Shown: positions 1,103 through 19,454 of the stretch, piece by piece
How the letters are laid out: the number at the start of each line of letters is the position of its first letter
Numbering within the stretch: the stretch's first letter is position 1
Assembly: GCA_913043815.1 (NCBI GenBank)
Contig: CAJWNY010000025.1
Span: 1 to 36,601 of the forward strand
DNA: 36,601 nt
Origin: an uncultured Gammaproteobacteria bacterium
GTDB lineage: Bacteria; Pseudomonadota; Gammaproteobacteria; Pseudomonadales; Azotimanducaceae
Reading direction: 5' to 3'
The notes under the pieces: generated by a model
Databases searched by the model: none
Seen by the model: the letters and a program-made list of their open reading frames with translations, nothing else
Told to the model about the DNA's origin: nothing
Made by a program: the position numbers and the translations under genes

Positions 1103-1969
1103 CTAGCGGTGCTTAGAGGCTATGTAAAGAAAAGTCATATGCGGCACGGTTAAGGCAGCTAGCGCGACAAAAGTATATTGAATGGCGCTGTTCCCAGCTG
1201 TCATGGAGACGGAGGTTGTGTTTTGTGGGTTGAATTCTGGAGCAAGAATTACAAGTAATGCGATTATGCTAAAGACGAAAAAACTCAGCAGATACACTGC
1301 TAAATAACGGCTGTTGGGTAATTTCAGTCGCCAGCGTTGCAAGTGATGGGGGCCGTGTAAAAAAGCGAAATAGCAGGTAAATGCAATGAGTGCACCACCT
1401 AGCGCGCAGACTAATGCGTAGCTACTTAGTAACGGAAGTGTAGCAATATGTGGCGGCTCGTCGCCCATCTTCATGCCGCACAGTAAAACGGCGGGTATAG
1501 CTAAATAGCCCATTCCGCTCGTTATAAGCGGCGCTGGCGCAATACCGAGTACAAGTGTGAATAAAATTGTTACCTGTTGAGGAGCCAATAAGCAGGGCAG
1601 GGTAATAATCGCAAGTCCCCACGCGGTCTTTTGTAATTTACACGACATGGGCCAATCTGAGTCGCCAAAATGGAAAGCTGAATAGCATAAAAAAGCTGTT
1701 AGAAAAATATTTGCGCTTGACCACCAGAGCAGCACGGTGGCCGCTATGAGCACTAGATAGCCGATTATTGCGAGGACAAAGGACTTGTTGGCGTAAAGAT
1801 TGGCTATAATGTAAAAGTCGAATGCGCCGTGAGGCAGTCCAGCTGCAAGGATTAGAATGCAACAGCCGATGAGCACCCAGTTATGTTCCGCGCCGAAGAG
1901 CAGGCTGCAAAGACTTGCTATAGCGCAGCTAATAAGGAAAAACTGAAACGGTCTAAAGGTTTTTAGCAC
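1103..1969 (-). CDS. blh: Beta-carotene 15,15'-dioxygenase, Brp/Blh family
   Basis: This integral membrane enzyme cleaves beta-carotene symmetrically into two retinal molecules, the chromophore of the rhodopsin encoded in the same cluster. The 288-residue protein is strongly hydrophobic along its length, with several membrane segments. It keeps the histidines expected to bind the catalytic iron: His47 in GLPHGAFDF, His100 in SAFHFGDSDW, His205, His208 and His209 in HGPHHLQRW, and His277 in LTVPHMTF. The start overlaps the end of crtY by 17 bp, indicating translational coupling at the end of the operon. No truncation is visible. Family assignment rests on the histidine motifs plus the crt/rhodopsin context and is firm. 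Confidence 0.95.
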   Translation of the reverse strand: MLKTFRPFQFFLISCAIASLCSLLFGAEHNWVLIGCCILILAAGLPHGAFDFYIIANLYANKSFVLAIIGYLVLIAATVLLWWSSANIFLTAFLCYSAFHFGDSDWPMSCKLQKTAWGLAIITLPCLLAPQQVTILFTLVLGIAPAPLITSGMGYLAIPAVLLCGMKMGDEPPHIATLPLLSSYALVCALGGALIAFTCYFAFLHGPHHLQRWRLKLPNSRYLAVYLLSFFVFSIIALLVILAPEFNPQNTTSVSMTAGNSAIQYTFVALAALTVPHMTFLYIASKHR

Positions 1970-3122
1970 AACGGAAAGCTTCGCATATGAATAAAAATTT
2001 CGGCATTGCGGCTATAACCTTAAGGTAGTCAGTGATCTTAGCGTTGTCGCCCAAAAATCTGATCAAAACTGGCTCTGGCACGCGTTTAAAGAGCCGTATA
2101 AATGTACTTGCTGCGTGTGCGGGTTGATGTTCGAGAAAACTTATGAAAACGTGGTCGAGCCATTGAGCGACTGGTTTACGTACAGCGGTGACCTGATGCG
2201 CCTTACCGGCAAAGAGCCTGCTAGCATGTTGTTTGGCTTGATGCTGCGCATGCGGGTAACAATAGCCGGTTGAAGGTTTCGCGGTGTCGGCATAAAGACC
2301 AAAAGGTATGACGTTGTAATGTGCACGTTGTTCTGGATTAGGAGGTTTTTTTGGCATAGGGATAATGCCGCGCTCCTCGCGCAGAATCCGCCACTCGCCG
2401 ATTCCAAGTTCCGTTGTAATGTAATGCGTAAGCTCTTCCAGATAGATTTTATCCTCTAACGACTTTTTGGAGAAATGGGTGGTCTCAACTAATGCGTGCC
2501 TTTTGGTGAAGGGAAGGACGTAAAAGAAATGAATGTCATCATCATTGCTCGCTTGAAAGTCCATCAAAGTAACCGTATGCGTATCAAAGACGTCCTGGTC
2601 TGTTTCTATTTCCCAGCCGACGAAGTGTTGCAAGAGCGTACCGAAGGGTATTTCTTTAGGCCGTGTGTCGTAGACATAGTCAGCTTTGAACTGGACGTCA
2701 TCACAATCTACAGTTATTTGCGTTTGTCCGATCTGCAGCGCTTCGGCTCGAGTTCCGGTTAATAGATTTACCGATGTCGACCTAGTTAAGCGCTCCTGAG
2801 CTATTGCGTAGTAACGGCCGCTGTCTACCATCACATAATCAAGTTCAGAGCTCCGGCAGATATGAGTGTTATCCCCAGATTTGATCAGCCATCGGTTCCA
2901 GCGGTGAGTAACAGCAGAATCGAACAGATTTGCGTCTTGTTGCCAAAAGCACCACGTTTTATCGCTTAGGTATTTCACTCGTGGCTCAATGACCCAGGTG
3001 TCTTTTTCTTGGTCTGAATATAGATCGTTGTAGTCCGCAATATGGCAGGCCAACGCCAAGCCACTCATGCCGCCTCCCAGAACTAAGACGTCGCAATTGG
3101 TTATGCTGGAATTATTGGACAC
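1953..3122 (-). CDS. crtY: Lycopene beta-cyclase
   Basis: Converts lycopene to beta-carotene by cyclising both ends, at the membrane. The 389-residue protein opens with a dinucleotide-binding signature, VLVLGGGMSGLALA (about residues 12-25), typical of the FAD-dependent cyclase family, and has the usual CrtY length of about 380-390. The start is GTG, 9 bp after the crtB stop, with AGGCG upstream as a weak ribosome-binding site. The 3' end overlaps blh by 17 bp. It supplies the substrate of Blh. Order and spacing match other proteorhodopsin-linked carotenoid operons. Confidence 0.92.
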   Translation of the reverse strand: MSNNSSITNCDVLVLGGGMSGLALACHIADYNDLYSDQEKDTWVIEPRVKYLSDKTWCFWQQDANLFDSAVTHRWNRWLIKSGDNTHICRSSELDYVMVDSGRYYAIAQERLTRSTSVNLLTGTRAEALQIGQTQITVDCDDVQFKADYVYDTRPKEIPFGTLLQHFVGWEIETDQDVFDTHTVTLMDFQASNDDDIHFFYVLPFTKRHALVETTHFSKKSLEDKIYLEELTHYITTELGIGEWRILREERGIIPMPKKPPNPEQRAHYNVIPFGLYADTAKPSTGYCYPHAQHQAKQHASRLFAGKAHQVTAVRKPVAQWLDHVFISFLEHQPAHAASTFIRLFKRVPEPVLIRFLGDNAKITDYLKVIAAMPKFLFICEAFRCAKNL

Positions 3123-3131
3123 AAAACACGC

Positions 3132-4049
3132 CTAAGCAGAGAATTTACTTTTATCTAGTGCTTTGTGCAGCTGCTGGCAGTGAGTGACTTTGCCGATCAA
3201 TAACGTGCTAGATCCTTCGTGCATCCGTTGCCAAAGCATCAATAGGATCAGTAAGCACTTTCGCCGCCGCGAAACAATACTCCGTCCGGTCCAATAGGTT
3301 GTTGGCGAGGCTAAAATTTTATCACCGATTGCTTGATAAAGACGCGCAGCGATCTTGATGGTATGTCTTACGCTCCTGGGCAGATAGCCATAGCCCATTG
3401 CGGCACTCGCGTAGTATTGGTCAGCAATCTGCAACAGTTGCCGCGCACCCTCATAAGCACTGTCGCGCATTGCTTGATCACCTCGCGTAAGTCCTTCGCA
3501 AGTTATCGGTGTAGAGAGCAGCTCGGCAGGAATATAGATTCTATCGCGTTCGGCATCTTCTAAGATATCCCGACAGATATTACTCATTTGCATTGCGACA
3601 CCAAGGTCAATAGCAAACGGAAATGCATGGGGGTTACGAACGTTAAAGACATAGCACATCATCAAACCAACGGTTGATGCTACTCCGTAGGAAAACCGCA
3701 CTAATTCATCAATACTGTGCAGTTCCCGCGGGTATTGGTCCTTGATAATTGCATCGACGAAGTCCAATAACAATTGGCTGGGGATACCATAGTCTCTTTG
3801 CAGAAATAACAAGTCATTGATCTGATCATCATTGCTTTTTTCAGCGTAGATATCTTGTCGAAGAGCACTGAGTACTTCTTTGTTACTGCCGGGGCTACCG
3901 GTATCTGCTAGGTCATCAACGTATCTGCAAAAAGCGTAGAGTCTCGCTACTGCCTCATAGCGGTCTTTATTGAGGAACCGTGCCGCTAAAGAAAAAGTTT
4001 TGGCATGTGCTTTAAAGGTCTCTTCTGCTTGTGCAAGTTGAGTGATCAT
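3132..4049 (-). CDS. crtB: Phytoene synthase
   Basis: Condenses two geranylgeranyl diphosphate molecules head to head into phytoene, the first committed carotenoid step. The 305-residue protein has both aspartate-rich Mg-diphosphate motifs: DDLAD at residues 45-49, within FCRYVDDLADTG, and the second in NICRDILEDAERDRIYIP. This fits the squalene/phytoene synthase fold and length. It overlaps the end of crtI by 4 bp (ATGA-type junction), consistent with coupled translation, and is followed after 9 bp by crtY. Nothing appears to be missing. Confidence 0.95.
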   Translation of the reverse strand: MITQLAQAEETFKAHAKTFSLAARFLNKDRYEAVARLYAFCRYVDDLADTGSPGSNKEVLSALRQDIYAEKSNDDQINDLLFLQRDYGIPSQLLLDFVDAIIKDQYPRELHSIDELVRFSYGVASTVGLMMCYVFNVRNPHAFPFAIDLGVAMQMSNICRDILEDAERDRIYIPAELLSTPITCEGLTRGDQAMRDSAYEGARQLLQIADQYYASAAMGYGYLPRSVRHTIKIAARLYQAIGDKILASPTTYWTGRSIVSRRRKCLLILLMLWQRMHEGSSTLLIGKVTHCQQLHKALDKSKFSA

Positions 4050-5542
4050 ATTAGTTTGCTCGCGACTACAGGGTGATCTTGCTTTAAAAGGTTTTCAACT
4101 ACTTTAGCTGAACTCAAAACTCCAGGGACGCCGGCACCTGGATGTGTGCCAGCGCCGACAAAATATAGGTTTGAAAAATCCTCTGAGCGGTTATGAAAGC
4201 GAAAGAATGCAGATTGGCTAAAGATTGGTGCAATCGAAAAACCTGCTCCCCACTGAGATTGATATTGGGCTTGGAAATCGTTTGGATCGAAGTCGAAGCA
4301 CACCTCCAGATTTTCGCGTAAATTTGGTAGGACACGATCTTCTAAGATGTCGAGTACGCGTTCTTTCACGCGATCTTTCACTTGATCCCAGTCGCCGCGT
4401 TGTAGGTTAGGTACTGGCGCAAGCACGTAAAACGCATCCTTACCTTCTGGTGCTAAATTAGCATCGGTAGCCGTTGGGCGGTGAAGGTAAAGGCTCAGGT
4501 CGTCACCAGCCTCGCCCCCGTCGAAAATACGTTGTAATAATTCCTGGTATTCGTTGCCAAATATAATTGTGTGGTGCTCAACGCTCTCGTACTTTTTATT
4601 AGTTCCAAAATAAAGTACGTAGAGTCCCATAGAATATTTAAGTTTATCGATGCGCTTATCAGTCCATTTTTTACGCTGGTTTCCTACAATTAGATTTTTG
4701 TAAGTGTACGCTGGGTCTCCGTTACAAATTATGATGTCTGCTGGCAACGTTGACCCGTCCGCAAAAGACACAGCCGATATTCCGCCATTCTCAGTTTGAA
4801 TATTCTTCACATTCTGTCCAAACCGAACCTCAATGCCTACTTCTAGCATTAACTTGCCTAAGGCCTGAACTAATGCGCCGGTGCCTCCACGGGGATAGTG
4901 AACGCCCCAACGTCGTTCCAGATAGTGGATTAGAGAATAAATACTTGTCGTGCTAAAGGGGTTGCCTCCGACTAACAAGGGTTGAATGCTAAAGGCGCGT
5001 CTTAAACGATCGTCTTTCAAGTAGCGTTTGGTGAATTGCCACACCGTTCGGTAGCAGCCAAGTTTTATCAACTCGGGTACTTGCTTGAGCATGAACCAAA
5101 AGCGATTAAAGGGTACGTGTGCAAGTTGCATAAATCCAACGTCAAAGATTTTCTCTGAGTGCGCCAGTAGCTTTTTGTAACCGTCCACATCTGCTGGATT
5201 GATACGTCGAATTTCGGCTAACGTATCTTCTACGCTTCCGCCGTAATTAAGGTGAGAGCCGTCGTTGAACTCGTAACGATACCAAGGGGTGACCGGTATC
5301 ATCTCTATATAATCTGTTATGTTGCGATCGAATAATTCGAACAGTTCGTCGAATAAAAAGGGCGCCGTAATAACAGTTGGGCCTGCATCAAAAATAAAAC
5401 CTTGCGTTTGAAAGGTTTGTGCGCGACCGCCAAGCTGATCCAAACGCTCTACTAAGGTTACTTCAAAGCCCATTTTTCGCGCTCGTAAAGCGCTGGCGAT
5501 GCCGCCGAAACCACTGCCAATAACTATGACGTGTTTACTCAT
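4046..5542 (-). CDS. crtI: Phytoene desaturase (CrtI type)
   Basis: FAD-dependent desaturase converting phytoene to lycopene. The 498-residue protein, the typical length, starts with the Rossmann signature VIVIGSGFGGIASALRARKMG followed by VERLDQLGGRAQT and FDAGPTVITAP, all diagnostic of the CrtI/amine-oxidoreductase family. The C-terminal family signature is visible as NLYFVGAGTHPGAGVPGVLSSAK. It overlaps crtE by 4 bp upstream and crtB by 4 bp downstream, so crtE-crtI-crtB look translationally coupled. How many desaturation steps it performs (three or four) cannot be told from sequence; presence of crtY and blh implies that lycopene is reached. Confidence 0.95.
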   Translation of the reverse strand: MSKHVIVIGSGFGGIASALRARKMGFEVTLVERLDQLGGRAQTFQTQGFIFDAGPTVITAPFLFDELFELFDRNITDYIEMIPVTPWYRYEFNDGSHLNYGGSVEDTLAEIRRINPADVDGYKKLLAHSEKIFDVGFMQLAHVPFNRFWFMLKQVPELIKLGCYRTVWQFTKRYLKDDRLRRAFSIQPLLVGGNPFSTTSIYSLIHYLERRWGVHYPRGGTGALVQALGKLMLEVGIEVRFGQNVKNIQTENGGISAVSFADGSTLPADIIICNGDPAYTYKNLIVGNQRKKWTDKRIDKLKYSMGLYVLYFGTNKKYESVEHHTIIFGNEYQELLQRIFDGGEAGDDLSLYLHRPTATDANLAPEGKDAFYVLAPVPNLQRGDWDQVKDRVKERVLDILEDRVLPNLRENLEVCFDFDPNDFQAQYQSQWGAGFSIAPIFSQSAFFRFHNRSEDFSNLYFVGAGTHPGAGVPGVLSSAKVVENLLKQDHPVVASKLI

Positions 5543-6540
5543 ATTACTTTAGTGCTCTTGGTTCTGTTGTTTGGCCATCGTTGGTTAGCCCTGTGAGGGA
5601 GCTGAATGGTATTAGCTGCATTGGGCGTACTCATCGACGCATCGTTCTTCAGCCTTTCATCAATGAATTTTTTAATCACGGCACTAGTGTGAGCGGGCAG
5701 TTTAGCTGCGTATTCAACGGCGCGTGTAATAGCTTGGGTCTGCCATATCCGGCATAAGTCTAAAGCTAAATCTCTGTGGCTGGTTTGTCGAATTAATGCC
5801 TTAAAGGGGTCTTCGCTCGGCGCTATCGATTTAATCGCGGCAACGGGCGCAGTGATAACCTTACCAATAATATCCTCGTCATTAACGAGCGTAGTTGGGG
5901 TCGCAAATGGCCGGAGATCATCAAGAATTTGATAGGCTAACCCTAATTGCTCCCCGCATAGTCGCGCTGGCTCCGTGTTCAAAATTTGATCGTGCCCAAT
6001 TAGATTCGAGAATTGTAATGGCAACGCTATGAATGCGCCGGTTTTGCTGACAGCAACCTCGGTGTAGATTTTTGTAAGATCTGCGCTCTGGATAGTGCTC
6101 GATAATTGTAGGTGTTGGCCGGACGCAGCACGACTTATCGCTTGGGACATCATTATGAGAAGTTTTGCGTGCATGGAAGAGTTGACGTCTACTTCTGCGA
6201 TAGCTCGAAAAGCCGCAGAAACAAAGTGGTCGCCCAAGAGTAACGCAGTGTTTGCACCAAATTTTTGCCAGACCGACGGTTCGCCTCGTCGGTATTCAGT
6301 GCGATCTTGTATGTCGTCATGGACAACAGATGCTTCGTGTATAAGCTCAATGGCCGCCCCCGAGTGCGCAAGTAACTCAAGATTTATGGGCTTAGATGAG
6401 GCGGCAAATAATAGTTGTGATCGGGTTCGCTTACCTGGGGTAGCTAGATGGTGAGACGCGGCCTGTGTCAGTGCGCCGGCTTCTTCACCATAAAAGTGGA
6501 TAGCGTCTTCTAGCGTAAGTCCGAGGTCGGTAATTCGCAT
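5539..6540 (-). CDS. crtE: Geranylgeranyl diphosphate synthase (polyprenyl synthetase family)
   Basis: Makes GGPP, the C20 precursor for CrtB. I place the start at ATG 6540 because GGAG lies six bases upstream; a TTG four codons earlier (6552) would read through that ribosome-binding site. The protein is 333 residues. The first aspartate-rich motif is intact, DDIQD at residues 75-79 in HDDIQDRTEYRRG. The second is DDLRP at 207-211, where the last Asp of the usual DDxxD is replaced by Pro. The C-terminal 30 residues (rich in Asn, Thr and Arg) look like a non-catalytic extension. It overlaps crtI by 4 bp and is separated from the upstream rhodopsin gene by a 141-bp gap holding a strong hairpin. 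Confidence 0.92.
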   Translation of the reverse strand: MRITDLGLTLEDAIHFYGEEAGALTQAASHHLATPGKRTRSQLLFAASSKPINLELLAHSGAAIELIHEASVVHDDIQDRTEYRRGEPSVWQKFGANTALLLGDHFVSAAFRAIAEVDVNSSMHAKLLIMMSQAISRAASGQHLQLSSTIQSADLTKIYTEVAVSKTGAFIALPLQFSNLIGHDQILNTEPARLCGEQLGLAYQILDDLRPFATPTTLVNDEDIIGKVITAPVAAIKSIAPSEDPFKALIRQTSHRDLALDLCRIWQTQAITRAVEYAAKLPAHTSAVIKKFIDERLKNDASMSTPNAANTIQLPHRANQRWPNNRTKSTKVI

Positions 6541-6601
6541 TTCCGTCTCCAAACCTAGCGTTCAAGAATTACTATGTAAATCATCTATGAGGCTTTTGTT
6601 C

Positions 6602-6622
6602 TATTGGGTATTGGGTATTGGG
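6602..6622. repeat. Three tandem TATTGGG heptamers
   Basis: TATTGGG is repeated three times without gaps between the crtE start and the rhodopsin stop, directly beside the large hairpin at 6626-6658. On the coding (minus) strand the unit reads CCCAATA. The copy number could vary by slippage. A function is not evident. Confidence 0.85.
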
Positions 6623-6625
6623 TAT

Positions 6626-6658
6626 TAGCGTTGCAGGGTTTTCGACCCTGCAACGCTA
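6626..6658 (-). terminator. Strong intercistronic hairpin between proteorhodopsin and crtE
   Basis: The 13-bp perfect arms AGCGTTGCAGGGT (6627-6639) and ACCCTGCAACGCT (6645-6657) enclose a 5-nt loop, with one more A-T pair outside. On the transcribed minus strand there is no U tract afterwards, so it is more likely to act as a 3' stabiliser or partial terminator for the rhodopsin mRNA than as a full Rho-independent terminator. This would let the pump be made in excess of the enzymes. A smaller hairpin, ATCGCC-TACG-GGCGAT (6664-6679), lies just after the rhodopsin stop; read on the plus strand it is followed by T5. Confidence 0.6.
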
Positions 6659-6681
6659 GCTTTATCGCCTACGGGCGATTT

Positions 6682-7362
6682 TTAGGCTTTTTCAGAAGAA
6701 GACGTAGCTGCCACCCAGATGACAACGCCGAATGCAATCTTGTTGACGAAGTCGGCAAGGTTGTAAACGAGGTTTAATCCAGCAGCGCCATCGGCCCCGG
6801 CTCCTAAGACATAACCAATCGGATAGATTGCCCAGCCTACGGTCACAATCAAACGTAGAGCGTTGAATGCGGTTTGGCTAGCAGGAGTACCCTGAGATGC
6901 ACTGATTTGACTGGCTTCACCAATGAAGATTTCATAGATGATGTACAACCATCCCGCCATGCCAATGACGAATGCAATCCAGATGTCCATTGCACCTATT
7001 TCACCGAGATAACCGAAGATTAACATTACCAATGAGGCAATCAGCAGTTTCCAGAACAGTGCAGCTCGAACGATGGCGATAGCTGCAAGGATCAGGTAAA
7101 ACTCAACAATTTGCAGTGGCACTGTTAGTAGCCAATCAACGTAGCGGAAAACGGTAGGACTTTGGCCAGTATCAACCCAAACACCTCTCATGTAGAAGTA
7201 ATGAATTGCTGCGATACCAGTCACCATAGCGGCTACCGTAAGGGATGTTTTCCACTTGCCTTCAGCGCGATCGCGTTCAACGGTGAAAAAGTAAGTCGCC
7301 GCAACCATCGCGGCTGAAATGATCCAGAAAGAGACGCCTACGTAATCTTGAGGGTCTAACAT
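6682..7362 (-). CDS. Proteorhodopsin, light-driven proton pump, predicted blue-absorbing
   Basis: Seven-helix retinal protein that pumps protons out of the cell on illumination. In the 226-residue chain the proton acceptor is Asp76 and the donor Glu87 (RYVDWLLTVPLQIVEFYLIL; positions 97 and 108 of the reference green proteorhodopsin), the conserved His is His54, and the Schiff-base lysine is Lys208 (DFVNKIAFG). Residue 84, equivalent to tuning position 105, is Gln, which in this family gives blue absorption. The start at MLDPQDYVGV is fixed by AGGAGAGG just upstream and an in-frame stop before that, so no leader peptide is encoded, unlike many longer homologues. It heads the crt-blh operon that makes its chromophore. 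Confidence 0.97.
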   Translation of the reverse strand: MLDPQDYVGVSFWIISAAMVAATYFFTVERDRAEGKWKTSLTVAAMVTGIAAIHYFYMRGVWVDTGQSPTVFRYVDWLLTVPLQIVEFYLILAAIAIVRAALFWKLLIASLVMLIFGYLGEIGAMDIWIAFVIGMAGWLYIIYEIFIGEASQISASQGTPASQTAFNALRLIVTVGWAIYPIGYVLGAGADGAAGLNLVYNLADFVNKIAFGVVIWVAATSSSEKA

Positions 7363-8337
7363 TCTCCTCTCCTTTGTTATTTAAATTTTCAGAGCGCCCA
7401 CATTCCCGTAAAACATGAATTGTTCTTATAACCAGCATTCCAGGCTTAACCTAAGTTAATCAGACGACAGCGGCTTTGAACTCTGCATGAATGCAGGACG
7501 GTCTTTTCTATCTCTCAAGTTGTCGATTTCACTCGACTACGGGTTTTCGGTCAGTTTGTTCAAATTGTTTCCAACACAGTAGCGTTGGCTGTAGTGAACA
7601 TAGTTTAAAATCTTCTTCTTCGCAATGCTCTAAATAGACCTAAATAATAATCATTCCTATTTAGTTGCATTTGATTAATCAACTGAAGGCGGGGAAGGAC
7701 GCAAGCCACGCAACTGTGAGATTTATTTCGTTTATAAATTATCAGGATGAGCGTGAATATCGTTGCGGTAAAAGGTCGCTCGTTCGGGAGCATATGGTGT
7801 CTACCAGCGTTTCTTGGTGCTGTTTCGTTATGCCTACATGATTTGTCCTTAATTATCCTATCGGCACTATAACAGAGTGTTCGCTGAAGCAGTTCTCGGT
7901 TATAGGACAACCAATCCATTGAATCAAAATAAGGTTTTGAAAAATCTTTAACCGCTCCTCATTGCGAGAAACGGCATCTTTCTTAATCCTAATTTTTACC
8001 CAAACAAAGGGCTGTGGGAGCTTCGCTGACCCCGGTTCTGAATCCCGACGTCAAAAATGAACTTTTCTTCACACCAATAGTTTGATTATTTGAGCATATA
8101 TATAGATAACTAACCTTTGCTGAGGCTGTTACACGGATCTAATTTCCCAGCATCGAGATTGGTTCATATCGTAGAATTTTAGGCGAAGTGTTGGATTTTT
8201 GACGCCTAACCAAAATTGCAGTCAGATAAAATAAAAAATACCCATATAAAACAGTTAGTTATCAATTATCGCCGCCTAAATTTCTTGGTACGAAAATTGT
8301 ATGTCAATAGTAGTTATTAACTTGTGGGATTCCTATT
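7363..8337. other. 975-bp intergenic region between the divergent rhodopsin operon and flagellin gene
   Basis: No convincing gene. It should hold the promoters of two divergent units. On the minus strand a -10-like TATAAG (7425-7430) lies about 60 bp before the rhodopsin start. Upstream of it are several inverted repeats: TTAAC-CTAA-GTTAA (7446-7459), CTGCAT-GA-ATGCAG (7483-7496) and GTCGA-N6-TCGAC (7522-7537), which could be operators. On the flagellin side the last 200 bp are AT-rich; I could not find a clean sigma28 (TAAA-N15-GCCGATAA) or sigma54 site. Confidence 0.5.
7425..7430 (-). promoter_or_regulatory. Possible -10 element of the proteorhodopsin operon
   Basis: TATAAG on the minus strand matches TATAAT at five of six positions and would give a 5' leader of roughly 60 nt. 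No good -35 lies 16-18 bp upstream, which may mean an activator is required; the inverted repeat TTAAC-CTAA-GTTAA overlaps the place where the -35 would be. This is inference only. Confidence 0.25.
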
Positions 8338-11300
8338 GTGGCTGCAATATCTTCGATCAACAGTTCAACCCTTGTTGCTCGATCTAATATGGATCGAAGC
8401 TCACAGCGCTTGGAGCAGGCTATGGCGGGCCTTAGCACCGGACTCAAGCCCAATTTAAGTAGGGACGATCCGGCAGCGTACATGCGTGGCAGTCAGATGG
8501 CCGCCAACGTTAGGTGGCAGACCGAGGCAGTGCAAAATATTTCCAATGCTGGAGCTATGGCTGGCTCTGCTGAAACCGGTATTGAGCGCGTCAACGACGC
8601 TTTATTGCGGATTCGCGAGCTCGCTTTGCAAGCGGCGAACGCCACCACGGATAAAGACCGTTCCTCTTTACAGGCCGAGGTGGCGCAGCTTGTTGATTCG
8701 ATAACCCGACTTTCAGCTGATACAAAATATAACGGCGTGGCATTGCTTGGCGAGTATAAAGACCCTTTTAAATTTCAAGTTGGTGCACGAGCAACTGATT
8801 TTTTGGAGCACAGCATCGATAGCTTCCGACCTCAAGATATCGGTTCTCATACCTATACAAGTGAGGGTGATGGCGTATTCACTGCAGCTGCTAGCACCAG
8901 CGAAATAACTCGAGCAGACAATCCAAGCAGGATGACGGTAATAAACGAGGCTGGTGAGTCGACTGACATTAGCTGGAGAACAAACCTGCCCTCGGATCAA
9001 ATCGCTCTAGCAATTAATGCCGAAAGTAATTTAACTGGCGTTAAGGCCGATGCCGTAACAAGAGCAACGCTTACATCAGCCAGCAATCAAGCACAGACCT
9101 ATAGTTTAAAAATTAATGGCTACAGCACTGGAAACTTTTCAATTCGCTCCGGTGAGGGCATTGCAGCAGCGGCAGCCATTAATCGCATCTCTGGAGAGAC
9201 AGGTGTTCAGGCGCAATTTTTTGAGGGTGCGGTGCACTTAACGGATAGAAGCGGCAAAGATATCAGTATTGAAAATGAACGAGCTGGGGTGACCTTTAAC
9301 TCGCTTAGGGTGCAAAAAGTTGGTTGGGCTGGCGGTGTTGGAGATTTAGTTGGTGCAGTTGTTAGTTTAGACGGTTCAGGTTCTAACGACACAACCATTG
9401 TTTCCGGCAGTATTAAGTTGTCGTCTAACAATGTTTTTTCAATTCGTAATGATTCAGCAGTTAGTCATTTCGATGATGATCAAAAGAAAAAAATCACCCA
9501 AGATTCCGTTGCCTCAGTTGTAAAAGATGAGCTGTCGGTGGTGGGCGGTAAGTTATTTAAGGGCAATGGCGAGTCTGCCGACCTTGTAGGGTTGCTAGAT
9601 ACAGCTGCCTCTGATTTGGCAAACGGCTTGGCCCGATTCAATTTTGCTTATGGGCTGTCTGAGGCAGGTTTTGACGATGAAGCCGCAGGCTCTGGAAGCT
9701 TTGCCAAATGGGACAGTTACAGTCAACGGGTTAATCTCGACGGTGAAACGCGCTTAAGTAATCACAACATTCCGATAGACGAAACATTACCAGCTTTCAG
9801 TAACGGCCTGTTGGACACAGTAGGTGATGCAAAGGCGCCCTATGAAGACGCTACATTTAGCATTGAACGGGTTGCCGATTCGTCATCCGGCAGCGGCTTT
9901 TCTGTGGAGTTACAAAGCGGGCCAATTAAAGTGCCTACTGTTGGTATTGTGCATGGTCCAGTTTTTGAAAGTTCTGAGACGTATGCACTTGAACCAGGAG
10001 ACAAGCTTTCTTTTGATTGGCGAGGACTCGCTGGAACAGCTGACTATGATGTATATGCCTATGTAATTGATGAAGAAACTGGCGAAACTCAAGAGCTGCT
10101 AAATGCCACAGGCAGTGGTGGCGCGTCGAGCTCTTGGGCAGCAGTTAATCAAACTATTGAAAAGGCAGGCAACTACAAGGTAGTTTTTGTTGGCGGTGTG
10201 CGCAGTGACGAAGCTGTCACCTTTACCAATGGAGATTTTGAAGATGGCAGTGCAGGCAATACAAGTATCCCTGGTTGGACGACCTATACTAGCCAAGTGC
10301 GCCTTAATGGCCTAGATAATATCGCAGGTCAACCCAGTGCCACCGACACAGTATTTCCAGCGAACGTTGTTGGCGCTGCGCCGCATGATTCTACGGCGCC
10401 TAATTCAGCCTCTTATGTCGCTCAGCTGTCGACAGAAACGTCTACCGGAAGTGGCCTATCTCTCCAGTTGCAATCATCCGCCCAGCTTCAAAATGGTTAT
10501 GGCATTTTGCATGGACCCTACCTAGTCAGCAATGAATCTGTAACCTTGAAGGCGGGCGACTCTGTAGGATTCGACTGGCGTGCTACCGGCGGATCGGATG
10601 CGTACGATGTGGTTGGCTATCTCGTTAATGAAAATACCGGCCACGTTGAGGAGTTGTTGAATGAAACCGGTGCTACCGGAAGCGCAAGTACTTCTTGGGC
10701 TACGGTTTCTAAAAACGTTGATGCTGACGGTGTTTACCGCTTTGTGTTTGTTGCAGGTACTTGGGATGCATCAGGCGGCAGAGCGGCTGGCGCAAACTTA
10801 TATGTCGACAACATTACTGTGCAGGCTTCCGACTATCCATTGGTGTCTCGAGATGCGAGCCTACGTGTTGACAATATTGCTGTGGAGAAAAAATCTGGCA
10901 ATTTAGACAAAGCCGAGTTCAGTAAGATGGCTGACCGCTTATATGGACTGGGCGGAGACGATAGCAGCTCTTATTCAACTGTATTCGCCGCGAACTATGT
11001 TGAAATTAGGTCTAACGATATTGTCTCTGGTTTGAATACGGTGGCTACAATAGATATTTCTACCAATGCTGGCGCAAATAGTGCTTTGTCGATTGTTGAT
11101 GGCGCTCTCGAGAATTCCGCAAACAATCAGGCTAAGTTAGGCGCTTTACAATCCTCTATAGACTTTGGTATGGAGCGGCTGTTGCAAACGTCTATACAGT
11201 TTGACGCGGCAAAGTCTCGAGCTATGGATGCTGATTTTGCGCTTCAAAGTGCGAGGTTGGCGAAGGAGCAAATGTTGCAGCAAATGGGCAGTTTTGTTCT

Positions 11301-11349
11301 TTCTAACACTCAGGAAATTTTGCGGATGTCCCTGTCTCTAATTAGGTAG
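8338..11349 (+). CDS. Giant flagellin with large inserted central domain
   Basis: Filament subunit of a flagellum, 1003 residues, about twice the ordinary length. The N-terminal D0/D1 helices (about 1-170) and the C-terminal D1/D0 helices (about 930-1003, ending in LSLIR) are flagellin-like, with segments such as ALLRIRELALQAANAT and DADFALQSARLAKEQMLQQMG. Around 244-315 is a flagellin IN-type motif. The central insert holds two tandem, related modules, about 455-627 and 630-830, sharing features such as HGP, GD-SFDWR, YDV-Y-V, ELLN-TG, SSSWA or STSWA, and Y-VFV-G; the second begins NGDFEDG and ends YVDNITV, resembling extracellular beta-sandwich (carbohydrate-binding-like) domains. Start is GTG with a weak ribosome-binding site. 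No fliD, fliS, flaG or other flagellar gene lies nearby. Confidence 0.9.
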   Translation: MAAISSINSSTLVARSNMDRSSQRLEQAMAGLSTGLKPNLSRDDPAAYMRGSQMAANVRWQTEAVQNISNAGAMAGSAETGIERVNDALLRIRELALQAANATTDKDRSSLQAEVAQLVDSITRLSADTKYNGVALLGEYKDPFKFQVGARATDFLEHSIDSFRPQDIGSHTYTSEGDGVFTAAASTSEITRADNPSRMTVINEAGESTDISWRTNLPSDQIALAINAESNLTGVKADAVTRATLTSASNQAQTYSLKINGYSTGNFSIRSGEGIAAAAAINRISGETGVQAQFFEGAVHLTDRSGKDISIENERAGVTFNSLRVQKVGWAGGVGDLVGAVVSLDGSGSNDTTIVSGSIKLSSNNVFSIRNDSAVSHFDDDQKKKITQDSVASVVKDELSVVGGKLFKGNGESADLVGLLDTAASDLANGLARFNFAYGLSEAGFDDEAAGSGSFAKWDSYSQRVNLDGETRLSNHNIPIDETLPAFSNGLLDTVGDAKAPYEDATFSIERVADSSSGSGFSVELQSGPIKVPTVGIVHGPVFESSETYALEPGDKLSFDWRGLAGTADYDVYAYVIDEETGETQELLNATGSGGASSSWAAVNQTIEKAGNYKVVFVGGVRSDEAVTFTNGDFEDGSAGNTSIPGWTTYTSQVRLNGLDNIAGQPSATDTVFPANVVGAAPHDSTAPNSASYVAQLSTETSTGSGLSLQLQSSAQLQNGYGILHGPYLVSNESVTLKAGDSVGFDWRATGGSDAYDVVGYLVNENTGHVEELLNETGATGSASTSWATVSKNVDADGVYRFVFVAGTWDASGGRAAGANLYVDNITVQASDYPLVSRDASLRVDNIAVEKKSGNLDKAEFSKMADRLYGLGGDDSSSYSTVFAANYVEIRSNDIVSGLNTVATIDISTNAGANSALSIVDGALENSANNQAKLGALQSSIDFGMERLLQTSIQFDAAKSRAMDADFALQSARLAKEQMLQQMGSFVLSNTQEILRMSLSLIR

Positions 11350-15925: not shown

Positions 15926-16281
15926 TGGTGGAGGCGGCGGGAGTTGAACCCGCGTCCGCTGACTCGCCATTATTGGCTCTACATGCTTAGGGTCCGTCTA
16001 TTAATTTAGCGTCCAGTGACCCGACGGTCAGGGTACTTTCTGCGATCCCGATTGGTTTTAACGGTTCAACCCCGGGCGAGGTATCCGCGCGATCTTGCTG
16101 TTTTGCCGTCCATTTCTCCTAGCAAGAAACGAATCATGGACGTAAGCGGGTTTTTTAGGCCGCTAGTGCGTAGTTTTCGTCGTTGGCAACTATAAAGTTA
16201 CAGCGATTGTTTTACGAGAGTCACTACCCTCTCGGCATGCACCTCAAATTTTGATACCCGCGTCGAAACCATGTCGCCCCC
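15926..16281 (-). ncRNA. ssrA: Transfer-messenger RNA (tmRNA)
   Basis: Rescues stalled ribosomes together with SmpB. The 5' end reads GGGGGCGACATGGTTTCGAC and the 3' end finishes CGCCTCCACCA with an encoded CCA. The two ends pair in a 7-bp acceptor stem including the G3-U70 wobble that makes alanyl-tRNA synthetase charge tmRNA. The T arm (GCGGGTTCAACTCCCGC) is intact. Length is about 356 nt, normal for one-piece tmRNA. The tag frame at 16155-16187 encodes ANDENYALAA followed by TAA, with GCC as resume codon, close to the E. coli tag. It is transcribed away from the Sel1-repeat gene; smpB lies 2.5 kb away on the same strand. Confidence 0.97.
16155..16187 (-). other. tmRNA proteolysis-tag reading frame (ANDENYALAA)
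   Basis: Ten codons plus TAA inside ssrA, beginning at the GCC resume codon. The C-terminal LAA is the ClpXP/ClpAP degron, and the ANDEN portion matches the SspB-type adaptor-binding segment known from E. coli. The internal segment is intact, so the RNA appears functional. Confidence 0.95.
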
Positions 16282-18835: not shown

Positions 18836-19315
18836 TTAGTGGGCTGAAGTTTTAAATAACCTCTGCTTGTCGCGCTGCCAATCTCCTTCTTTCATAGTGG
18901 CGCGTTTGTCGTGTTGCTTCTTACCCTTACCTAGGGCTATCTCAACTTTTACTTTATTGCCTTTCCAGTACATCGCCAGTGGCACAATAGTGTAGCCTTT
19001 TTGCTGGTTGGCAACAAAAAGCTGCGCCAGTTCTTTGGCGTGTAAAAGTAATTTTCTCACTCGCTGTGGTTCAGCTATGACGTGGGTCGATGCGCTGAGT
19101 AGCGGCGTAATATTACAGCCAGCCAAATAGGCTTCACCTTGATGTAAGTTGATATAACCTTCGGCTATCTGCACTTTGCCGTCGCGAATACTTTTTACTT
19201 CCCAGCCAAGCAGCATCAGACCTGCTTCAAAGCGATCTTCGATAAAATAGTCGTGCCGCGCTCTTCGGTTCTGCGCGATGGTGCCCGGACTGGATTTCTT
19301 AGCTGATTTGGCCAT
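18836..19315 (-). CDS. smpB: SsrA-binding protein SmpB
   Basis: Binds the tRNA-like domain of tmRNA and carries it into the A site of stalled ribosomes. The usual start MAKSAKK at 19315 is preferred; the frame stays open upstream to 19390, but those 25 residues have no counterpart in the family. This gives 159 residues, the normal length. Motifs present: [48 protein letters not shown], the GKKQHDKR segment, and the basic C-terminal tail [11 protein letters not shown]. ssrA, its RNA partner, lies 2.5 kb away on the same strand. It is divergent from the transporter gene, with 139 bp between. Confidence 0.97.
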
Positions 19316-19454
19316 GATGGCTGTGTACTTTGTTTTGTTTAGGATTTTTGGCGGAGAGGAGTATATCAGGTTGTTATCCGTACATAGCAATCTCTAGGCT
19401 ACTCTGCGAGATCAGTAGTAAACTGCACACCCTTTAAAGAATTATAAACGCTTT

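Follow-up and report, generated by a model that had tools for sequence, protein, structure and literature searches.

Introduction

The giant flagellins of the Oceanospirillales are longer than 1000 amino acids (aa) and have a centre enlarged by internal duplication (Thomson et al. 2018, PMC6248924), and in the flagellinolysins a metallopeptidase sits within the hypervariable region of the flagellin (Eckhard et al. 2017, PMC5595980). More generally, according to PMC7018530, the outer domains of flagellins vary greatly and are under loose constraint. The stretch of DNA analysed here, referred to as the window, comprises 36,601 nucleotides (nt) of contig CAJWNY010000025.1 from an uncultured gammaproteobacterium of the Azotimanducaceae (assembly GCA_913043815.1); it holds, at 8338..11349 on the + strand, a gene for a giant flagellin whose centre contains two related modules, M1 and M2. 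The reading proposed, to which we give an even chance, is that of a second filament protein, driven by sigma54, in which a degenerate M1 serves as spacer and M2 is displayed to bind a polysaccharide. By name, the relatives of this flagellin belong to the K189A clade and to HTCC2089-type marine gammaproteobacteria; labels of metagenome-assembled genomes are unreliable in this respect, two loci labelled SAR116 and OM182 (L049 and L050), for instance, yielding an identical protein.

Two related modules between flagellin ends

M1 (residues 440-626, 9655..10215, + strand) and M2 (residues 629-828, 10222..10821, + strand), both delimited by hidden Markov model (HMM), share 37.9% identity over 177 aa in BLASTP (E 6e-38), and the internal pair is recovered in each of the 11 two-module proteins examined (35.6-41.5% over 123-182 aa). 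An earlier note, made from the window alone, had proposed two related modules at residues 455-627 and 630-830; the relationship is confirmed, with boundaries slightly shifted by the HMM. They are not equal units, however: M1 and M2 are, by alignment, related and not equivalent, because M1 covers only positions 3-180 of the 200 of the module HMM. In the 77-module alignment M1 lacks the AGAxLYxDN end, including D824, and all four M1 rows have V and S at the positions of T808 and D810 and A or G at that of D754; T and D at 808 and 810 are kept in 73 of the 73 other rows. Conserved residues of M2 include W647, W747, D754, D810 and D824. At the same place, M1 reads GVRSD and M2 reads GTWD in 11 of 11 two-module proteins. 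Judged from these alignments, M1 is a degenerate copy that has lost its last strand and the GTxD signature in all 11 proteins; it may have lost binding and kept a structural role. In a module tree built by a quick method, with long branches flagged, the M1 copies come together as a single cluster with a long branch (1.25) within the K189A group, whose 17 module rows, M1 included, hold together with a Shimodaira-Hasegawa-like approximate likelihood ratio test (SH-aLRT) value of 99; this tree places the duplication inside the K189A clade.

The modules lie within an otherwise recognisable flagellin of 1003 aa and 105 kDa (GTG start, predicted pI 4.5, no cysteine), barely above the 1000-aa limit of a giant flagellin with an enlarged centre. 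The earlier note had called its ends ordinary flagellin, and both pass their Pfam cut-offs: Flagellin_N (the N-terminal part of D0/D1, residues 7-140, 8356..8757, + strand) with 72.5 bits against 26.6 (E 4.8e-20) and Flagellin_C (the C-terminal part of D1/D0, residues 917-1001, 11086..11340, + strand) with 46.7 bits against 23 (E 4e-12). Between them no Pfam family, and no enzyme family, scores above its cut-off. No NCBIfam model listed reaches its own cut-off on the whole protein; the flagellin models score up to 176 bits, against 52 bits for the FlgL model TIGR02550 (cut-off 127), and by these scores the protein is nearer flagellin than FlgL. Residues 146-439 (8773..9654, + strand) form a D2-like region common to ordinary flagellins, the D2/DE label being assigned in this analysis on the basis of 37% identity to the genome's other flagellin over residues 6-354; phmmer also matches the protein to 5wk5 over residues 6-371. 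Residues 829-904 (10822..11049, + strand) lead from M2 back to the core.

Inverted conservation

Compared with four two-module orthologs of 51-53% overall identity (L027, L028, L030, L052), the window's protein is 42-44% identical in the N-part, 43-44% in the D2-like region, 54-57% in M1, 65-72% in M2 and 58-59% in the C-part; two further loci with ambiguous bases, L029 and L031, agree with this pattern. Against the single-module flagellins L034 to L037, the N-part falls to 23-32% and M2 stays at 58-62%. Little difference between the parts is seen against L024 to L026, the close orthologs at 82-91% (N-part 85-89%, M2 81-94%). Ordinary flagellins of the clade served as control (L020 to L023 and the flagellin of contig C110, three of the five incomplete): in ten pairs the N-part is 60-93% identical and residues 146-355 are 44-82% identical, and in the three pairs in which these parts can be compared, the outer part is 20-59% and the C-part 67-92% identical, C-part values of pairs with truncated proteins being meaningless and left out. 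On these alignments the conservation is thus inverted, M2 standing above the D0/D1 N-part against orthologs of the 50% class; the opposite holds for the clade's ordinary flagellins.

Recent exchange of the module could in principle produce a high M2 identity; it is rejected for the pairs compared, in which silent sites are near chance. At four-fold degenerate sites of M2 the observed and expected identities are 26 and 26% for L027, 36 and 26% for L028, 19 and 26% for L030, 28 and 27% for L035, and 27 and 27% for L036; against L024, whose protein is 91% identical, they are 44 and 27%. With silent sites near chance, selection on M2, and not recent exchange, is what explains its conservation at the sequence level; for the single-module flagellins, an ancient transfer between flagellin lineages is still conceivable. 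These results also bear on the view that the modules are ordinary hypervariable filler, shaped by escape from phages or grazers and without a binding role. The outer domains of flagellins are, as a rule, weakly constrained and diversified by selection (PMC7018530), but against orthologs of the 50% class no part of the protein is as conserved as M2, and we regard this view, already strained by the conservation and silent-site comparisons, as very improbable.

Predicted fold of the modules

AlphaFold2, given the 77-row alignment, predicts M2 as an all-strand domain with a predicted local distance difference test score (pLDDT) of 92 and a predicted template modelling score (pTM) of 0.89. Foldseek finds 85 matches to this model in the PDB at E <= 1e-3. 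Among the 50 best of these 85, 30 bear the names of carbohydrate- or sugar-binding modules, and variants of a single CBM29 account for 11 of the 30; carbohydrate-binding modules (CBMs) of families 4, 11, 16, 22, 28, 29 and 61 are represented, as are MAM-bearing proteins, and in a viral library the matches include tail fibres and CenC-like binding domains. The predicted fold of M2 is therefore that of a CBM-type beta-sandwich, at a moderate template modelling (TM) score, and the resemblance of the model to CBMs is a fold likeness only. The full-length model has helical ends and a mixed middle, in which M1 and M2 follow the same strand order and M1 is without the last strand. The earlier note had suggested two beta-sandwich modules that are related to each other and resemble carbohydrate-binding domains, and this holds in BLASTP, in the M2 model, in Foldseek and in the full-length model; of the searches it had proposed, the fold search on a predicted structure gave the CBM-type sandwich, and the search against Pfam returned no family for M2 and no CBM. 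PHROG likewise gave no fitting family for M2, and MAM (Pfam) is matched by two of the 77 module members (E 0.0012).

The first, third and fourth Foldseek matches are the flagellar sheath protein FlaA1 (best E 6e-7, TM 0.44-0.49), and this ranking would fit packing rather than sugar binding. The main rival to glycan binding is structural: M1 and M2 would thicken and stiffen the filament through contacts with neighbouring subunits, with M2 conserved for packing. Thick filaments are indeed formed by giant flagellins (PMC6248924), in other bacteria the dimerisation of outer domains has a modulating effect on motility (PMC8931119), and M1 has been retained though degenerate. The same module, with the same conserved residues, is nevertheless present in large cyanobacterial and actinobacterial proteins in which no flagellin ends were found, so that the conserved positions they share are not shaped by filament packing; we consider packing into a thicker filament possible but rather unlikely. 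Glycan binding by M2 is our best guess from the modelled fold, the kind of carriers and the constraint.

Spread of the module

A scan of 84,980 genomes returned 128 stretches matching the module patterns, of which 82 were confirmed; the best 80 loci, together with three from a scan of viral contigs, make up the 83 carriers considered here. One or both flagellin ends, detected with HMMs built from this clade, occur in 31 of them: 19 in the K189A group and 12 elsewhere, in Betaproteobacteria, Halieaceae, SAR92, Rhizobiales, Puniceispirillum and others. Two carriers are FlgK above the NCBIfam cut-off (L066:3805-7458 and L077:3736-6948). The remaining 50 have neither flagellin ends nor FlgK and include cyanobacterial and actinobacterial proteins; within these 50, Pfam typing covered L061 (a Nostoc DUF4347-cadherin protein), L115 (an Acidimicrobiales LPXTG protein), L089 (no Pfam family) and L119, the last via its source protein L039, the others being classed as large proteins or exoproteins by size and look. 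The source protein, at L039:3290-13099 in LSUCC0096, has 3269 aa, DUF4347, C-type lectin and Ig-like domains and one module, and is the same place as L119; L040 stands outside the 83 carriers.

The module is found once per genome in seven of eight further carrier genomes searched; in LSUCC0115 a second, weaker match lies, besides that in flagellin, in a FlgL-like protein (L146:835-2835; 113.8 bits, under the cut-off of 127.2). In the window's genus it occurs in 18 of 40 genomes, by place always in open reading frames (ORFs) seen as flagellin, and in the window's own genome only in the giant flagellin. At least six label changes between flagellar and other carriers are needed on the module tree, of which the starred branches force one; repeated insertion of the module into flagellar proteins is suggested by this tree. 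As for a phage origin, three contigs classed as viral (L124, L125, L126) hold a relative, and L125, close to the Azospira copy in the tree, may be bacterial DNA; phage records gave no match at E 1e-5; and one of 72,556 plasmid records carries half a module, in a VCBS-domain protein of Cereibacter sphaeroides (NZ_CP015293.1:2327-2678).

Two SAR92/Porticoccaceae flagellins of 1009 aa (L090:5182-8211 and L094:5182-8211) carry the module; that of L090 has four FG-GAP_2 repeats as well, and a propeller-like domain may thus also sit inside this flagellin.

A broader proposal, which we make tentatively and rate below even, is that M2 founds an unnamed portable glycan-binding family. Its members would have passed between the flagellum's axial proteins (flagellin, FlgK, FlgL) and large secreted proteins of adhesin-like kind, and a class of lectin flagellins would have arisen in several Pseudomonadota lineages. 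If this were true, the most conserved surface of a rotating filament would be a binding site.

Promoter-like site and genome context

Sigma54 recognises the consensus TTGGCACG-N4-TTGCA, with -24 and -12 elements. A site of this type, TTGGTACGAAAATTGTA (8285..8301, + strand), starts 53 nt before the GTG; it is the best-scoring place in 300 nt, and none of 500 first-order Markov resamples scores as high. In all ten two-module genes tested out of 12 (G001, at L031, was left out for ambiguous bases and G014, at L032, for its truncated 5' end), a sigma54-type site is the best in 300 nt and lies at -46 to -56, its score being equalled by 0 to 6.2% of 500 resamples, depending on the gene. By this consensus, a GG at -24 and a GC or GT at -12, 12 nt apart, are thus conserved in the orthologs. 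Of four single-module genes, L036 carries such a site at -51, the matches of L035 and L037 stand farther upstream, at -119 and -121, and L034 has none; the C110 flagellin has none either (19% of resamples as high). RpoN (sigma54) is encoded in the window's genome. A sigma28 promoter was rejected, the best matches upstream of 12 genes being equalled by 23-100% of shuffles.

The source assembly (2.85 Mb, 133 contigs, 90% complete) contains an ordinary flagellin gene adjoining flgB on contig C110, flgK and flgL on contig C63, and the C-terminal end of a flagellin gene at the edge of C63; from flgB, flgK, flgL and a flagellin, a working flagellum is probably encoded. The giant flagellin is thus a second flagellin outside the flagellar cluster, as the earlier note had thought possible. 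Its position away from fliD, also remarked there, is upheld: a Pfam scan of 29 further ORFs in the window found no flagellar gene, FliD_C is present in 25 of the 40 genomes searched in the genus, and in eight of the 12 genomes with a two-module flagellin it is found, always on another contig; it is without match in the other four, the window's included. In relatives too, the gene seems to be sited away from the flagellar cluster.

This separate location, the gene's own sigma54-type site and the presence of ordinary flagellins in the same genome would suit a protein that leaves the cell through the flagellar system and acts as an adhesin, either released or kept at the surface, instead of a filament subunit. 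Both flagellin ends are complete, however, and the C-terminal helical region is intact with its LIR/LLR end, and we consider this alternative improbable.

Upstream of the giant flagellin lie genes for a glutathione S-transferase (GST), a beta-carotene dioxygenase, lycopene cyclase, phytoene synthase, a desaturase-type amine oxidase, a polyprenyl synthase and a rhodopsin; downstream are an alcohol dehydrogenase (ADH), a glyoxalase and then mostly housekeeping genes. The earlier note had pointed to the rhodopsin operon next door. In G020 the flagellin lies between the same GST and ADH genes without the crt-rhodopsin block at this place, so the operon is a chance neighbour, and a functional link to it is rejected. 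For L028 and L030, two of the more distant orthologs, the five adjacent ORFs scanned encode a peptidase, a hydrolase, a major facilitator superfamily (MFS) transporter, a TetR regulator and a product without a family. Two observations concern the window in its own right: a proteorhodopsin/carotenoid operon was gained or lost between the same flanks (window 1103-7362 against L026:7099-8198, missing in G020), and a tmRNA on the minus strand (15926-16281, tag ANDENYALAA) has smpB nearby (18836-19390).

Proposed role of the giant flagellin

The family assignment, the two modules, the decay of M1, the predicted fold of M2, the inverted conservation, the promoter-like site and the separate location were computed; expression, assembly, binding, ligand and role are what we infer. 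Like those of any flagellin, the D0/D1 ends would build into the filament, as family membership suggests, and the outer part would present the D2-like region, then M1, then M2. M1 would be a degenerate copy retained for spacing or packing, and M2 the working copy, a CBM-like beta-sandwich that binds, outside the cell, a polysaccharide or a surface glycan. The gene would join the flagellar programme, despite lying outside the flagellar cluster, because it is switched on by sigma54. The filament could then serve as both propeller and multivalent holdfast, for instance on particles, algae or mucilage. If M2 binds glycans, these marine bacteria would have in their flagellum an organ of multivalent attachment, and this would bear on the colonisation of particles and algae.

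Beside the rank of FlaA1, several results weigh against this proposal. As for binding, the fold likeness is moderate (TM by query length 0.27-0.47 and root-mean-square deviation mostly 5-12 in the best 50 of 85 matches), no CBM is among the seven Pfam families matched by any of the 77 module members, the M2 profile finds a single match among PDB sequences at E 0.73, no ligand site was identified in M2, and the full-length model is poor (pLDDT 72, pTM 0.37). As for the promoter, the sigma54 consensus and its weights were set in this analysis after the site had been noticed by eye, the -12 element of the window's site is GT and not GC, and it is L025 whose site is equalled by 6.2% of resamples. 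As for the filament, neither FliD_N nor FliD_C (Pfam) has a match in the 90%-complete genome.

Comparison with known systems

Like the Oceanospirillales giant flagellins, the protein exceeds 1000 aa, has flagellin ends and an internally duplicated centre, and comes from marine gammaproteobacteria. In contrast to what is described of them, its gene encodes a second flagellin and its module also occurs in FlgK, in a FlgL-like protein and in non-flagellar proteins; on this distribution (FlgK and non-flagellar carriers) M1 and M2 were rejected as the Oceanospirillales DE-repeat, the published DE HMM itself not having been run. With the flagellinolysins, so far as these are described, the protein shares a foreign extracellular domain in the flagellin hypervariable region and a new filament activity, which here would be binding; the domain is a predicted beta-sandwich here and a metallopeptidase there, no enzyme family scores above cut-off here, and the 23 NCBIfam families that the protein matches at E <= 0.1 do not include flagella_HExxH, the flagellinolysin model. 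With the beta-sandwich CBMs (CBM4, 22, 29, 61), M2 has in common the predicted fold and the character of a portable extracellular domain, but it lacks any sequence match to a Pfam CBM family or to PDB sequences. FlaA1 is a separate sheath protein and not part of a flagellin. It is the best fold match (PDB 9cyn) and by its name also lies outside the flagellar filament, but at TM scores of only 0.44-0.49 and 10-11% identity to M2.

In the open-licence literature, seen mostly as titles and the beginnings of abstracts, no natural flagellin with a carbohydrate-binding-like module was recognised, and no description of one module common to flagellin, FlgK and FlgL was found. Giant flagellins (PMC6248924) and foreign domains in flagellins (PMC5595980) are already known; new here are the decay of M1, the inverted conservation, the sigma54-type site and fliD on a separate contig. 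The domain family that M2 defines has no Pfam entry, is open to testing, and extends to hook-filament junction proteins and unrelated large proteins; and in contrast to the loosely constrained outer domains described in PMC7018530, the outer module is here better conserved than the core that polymerises.
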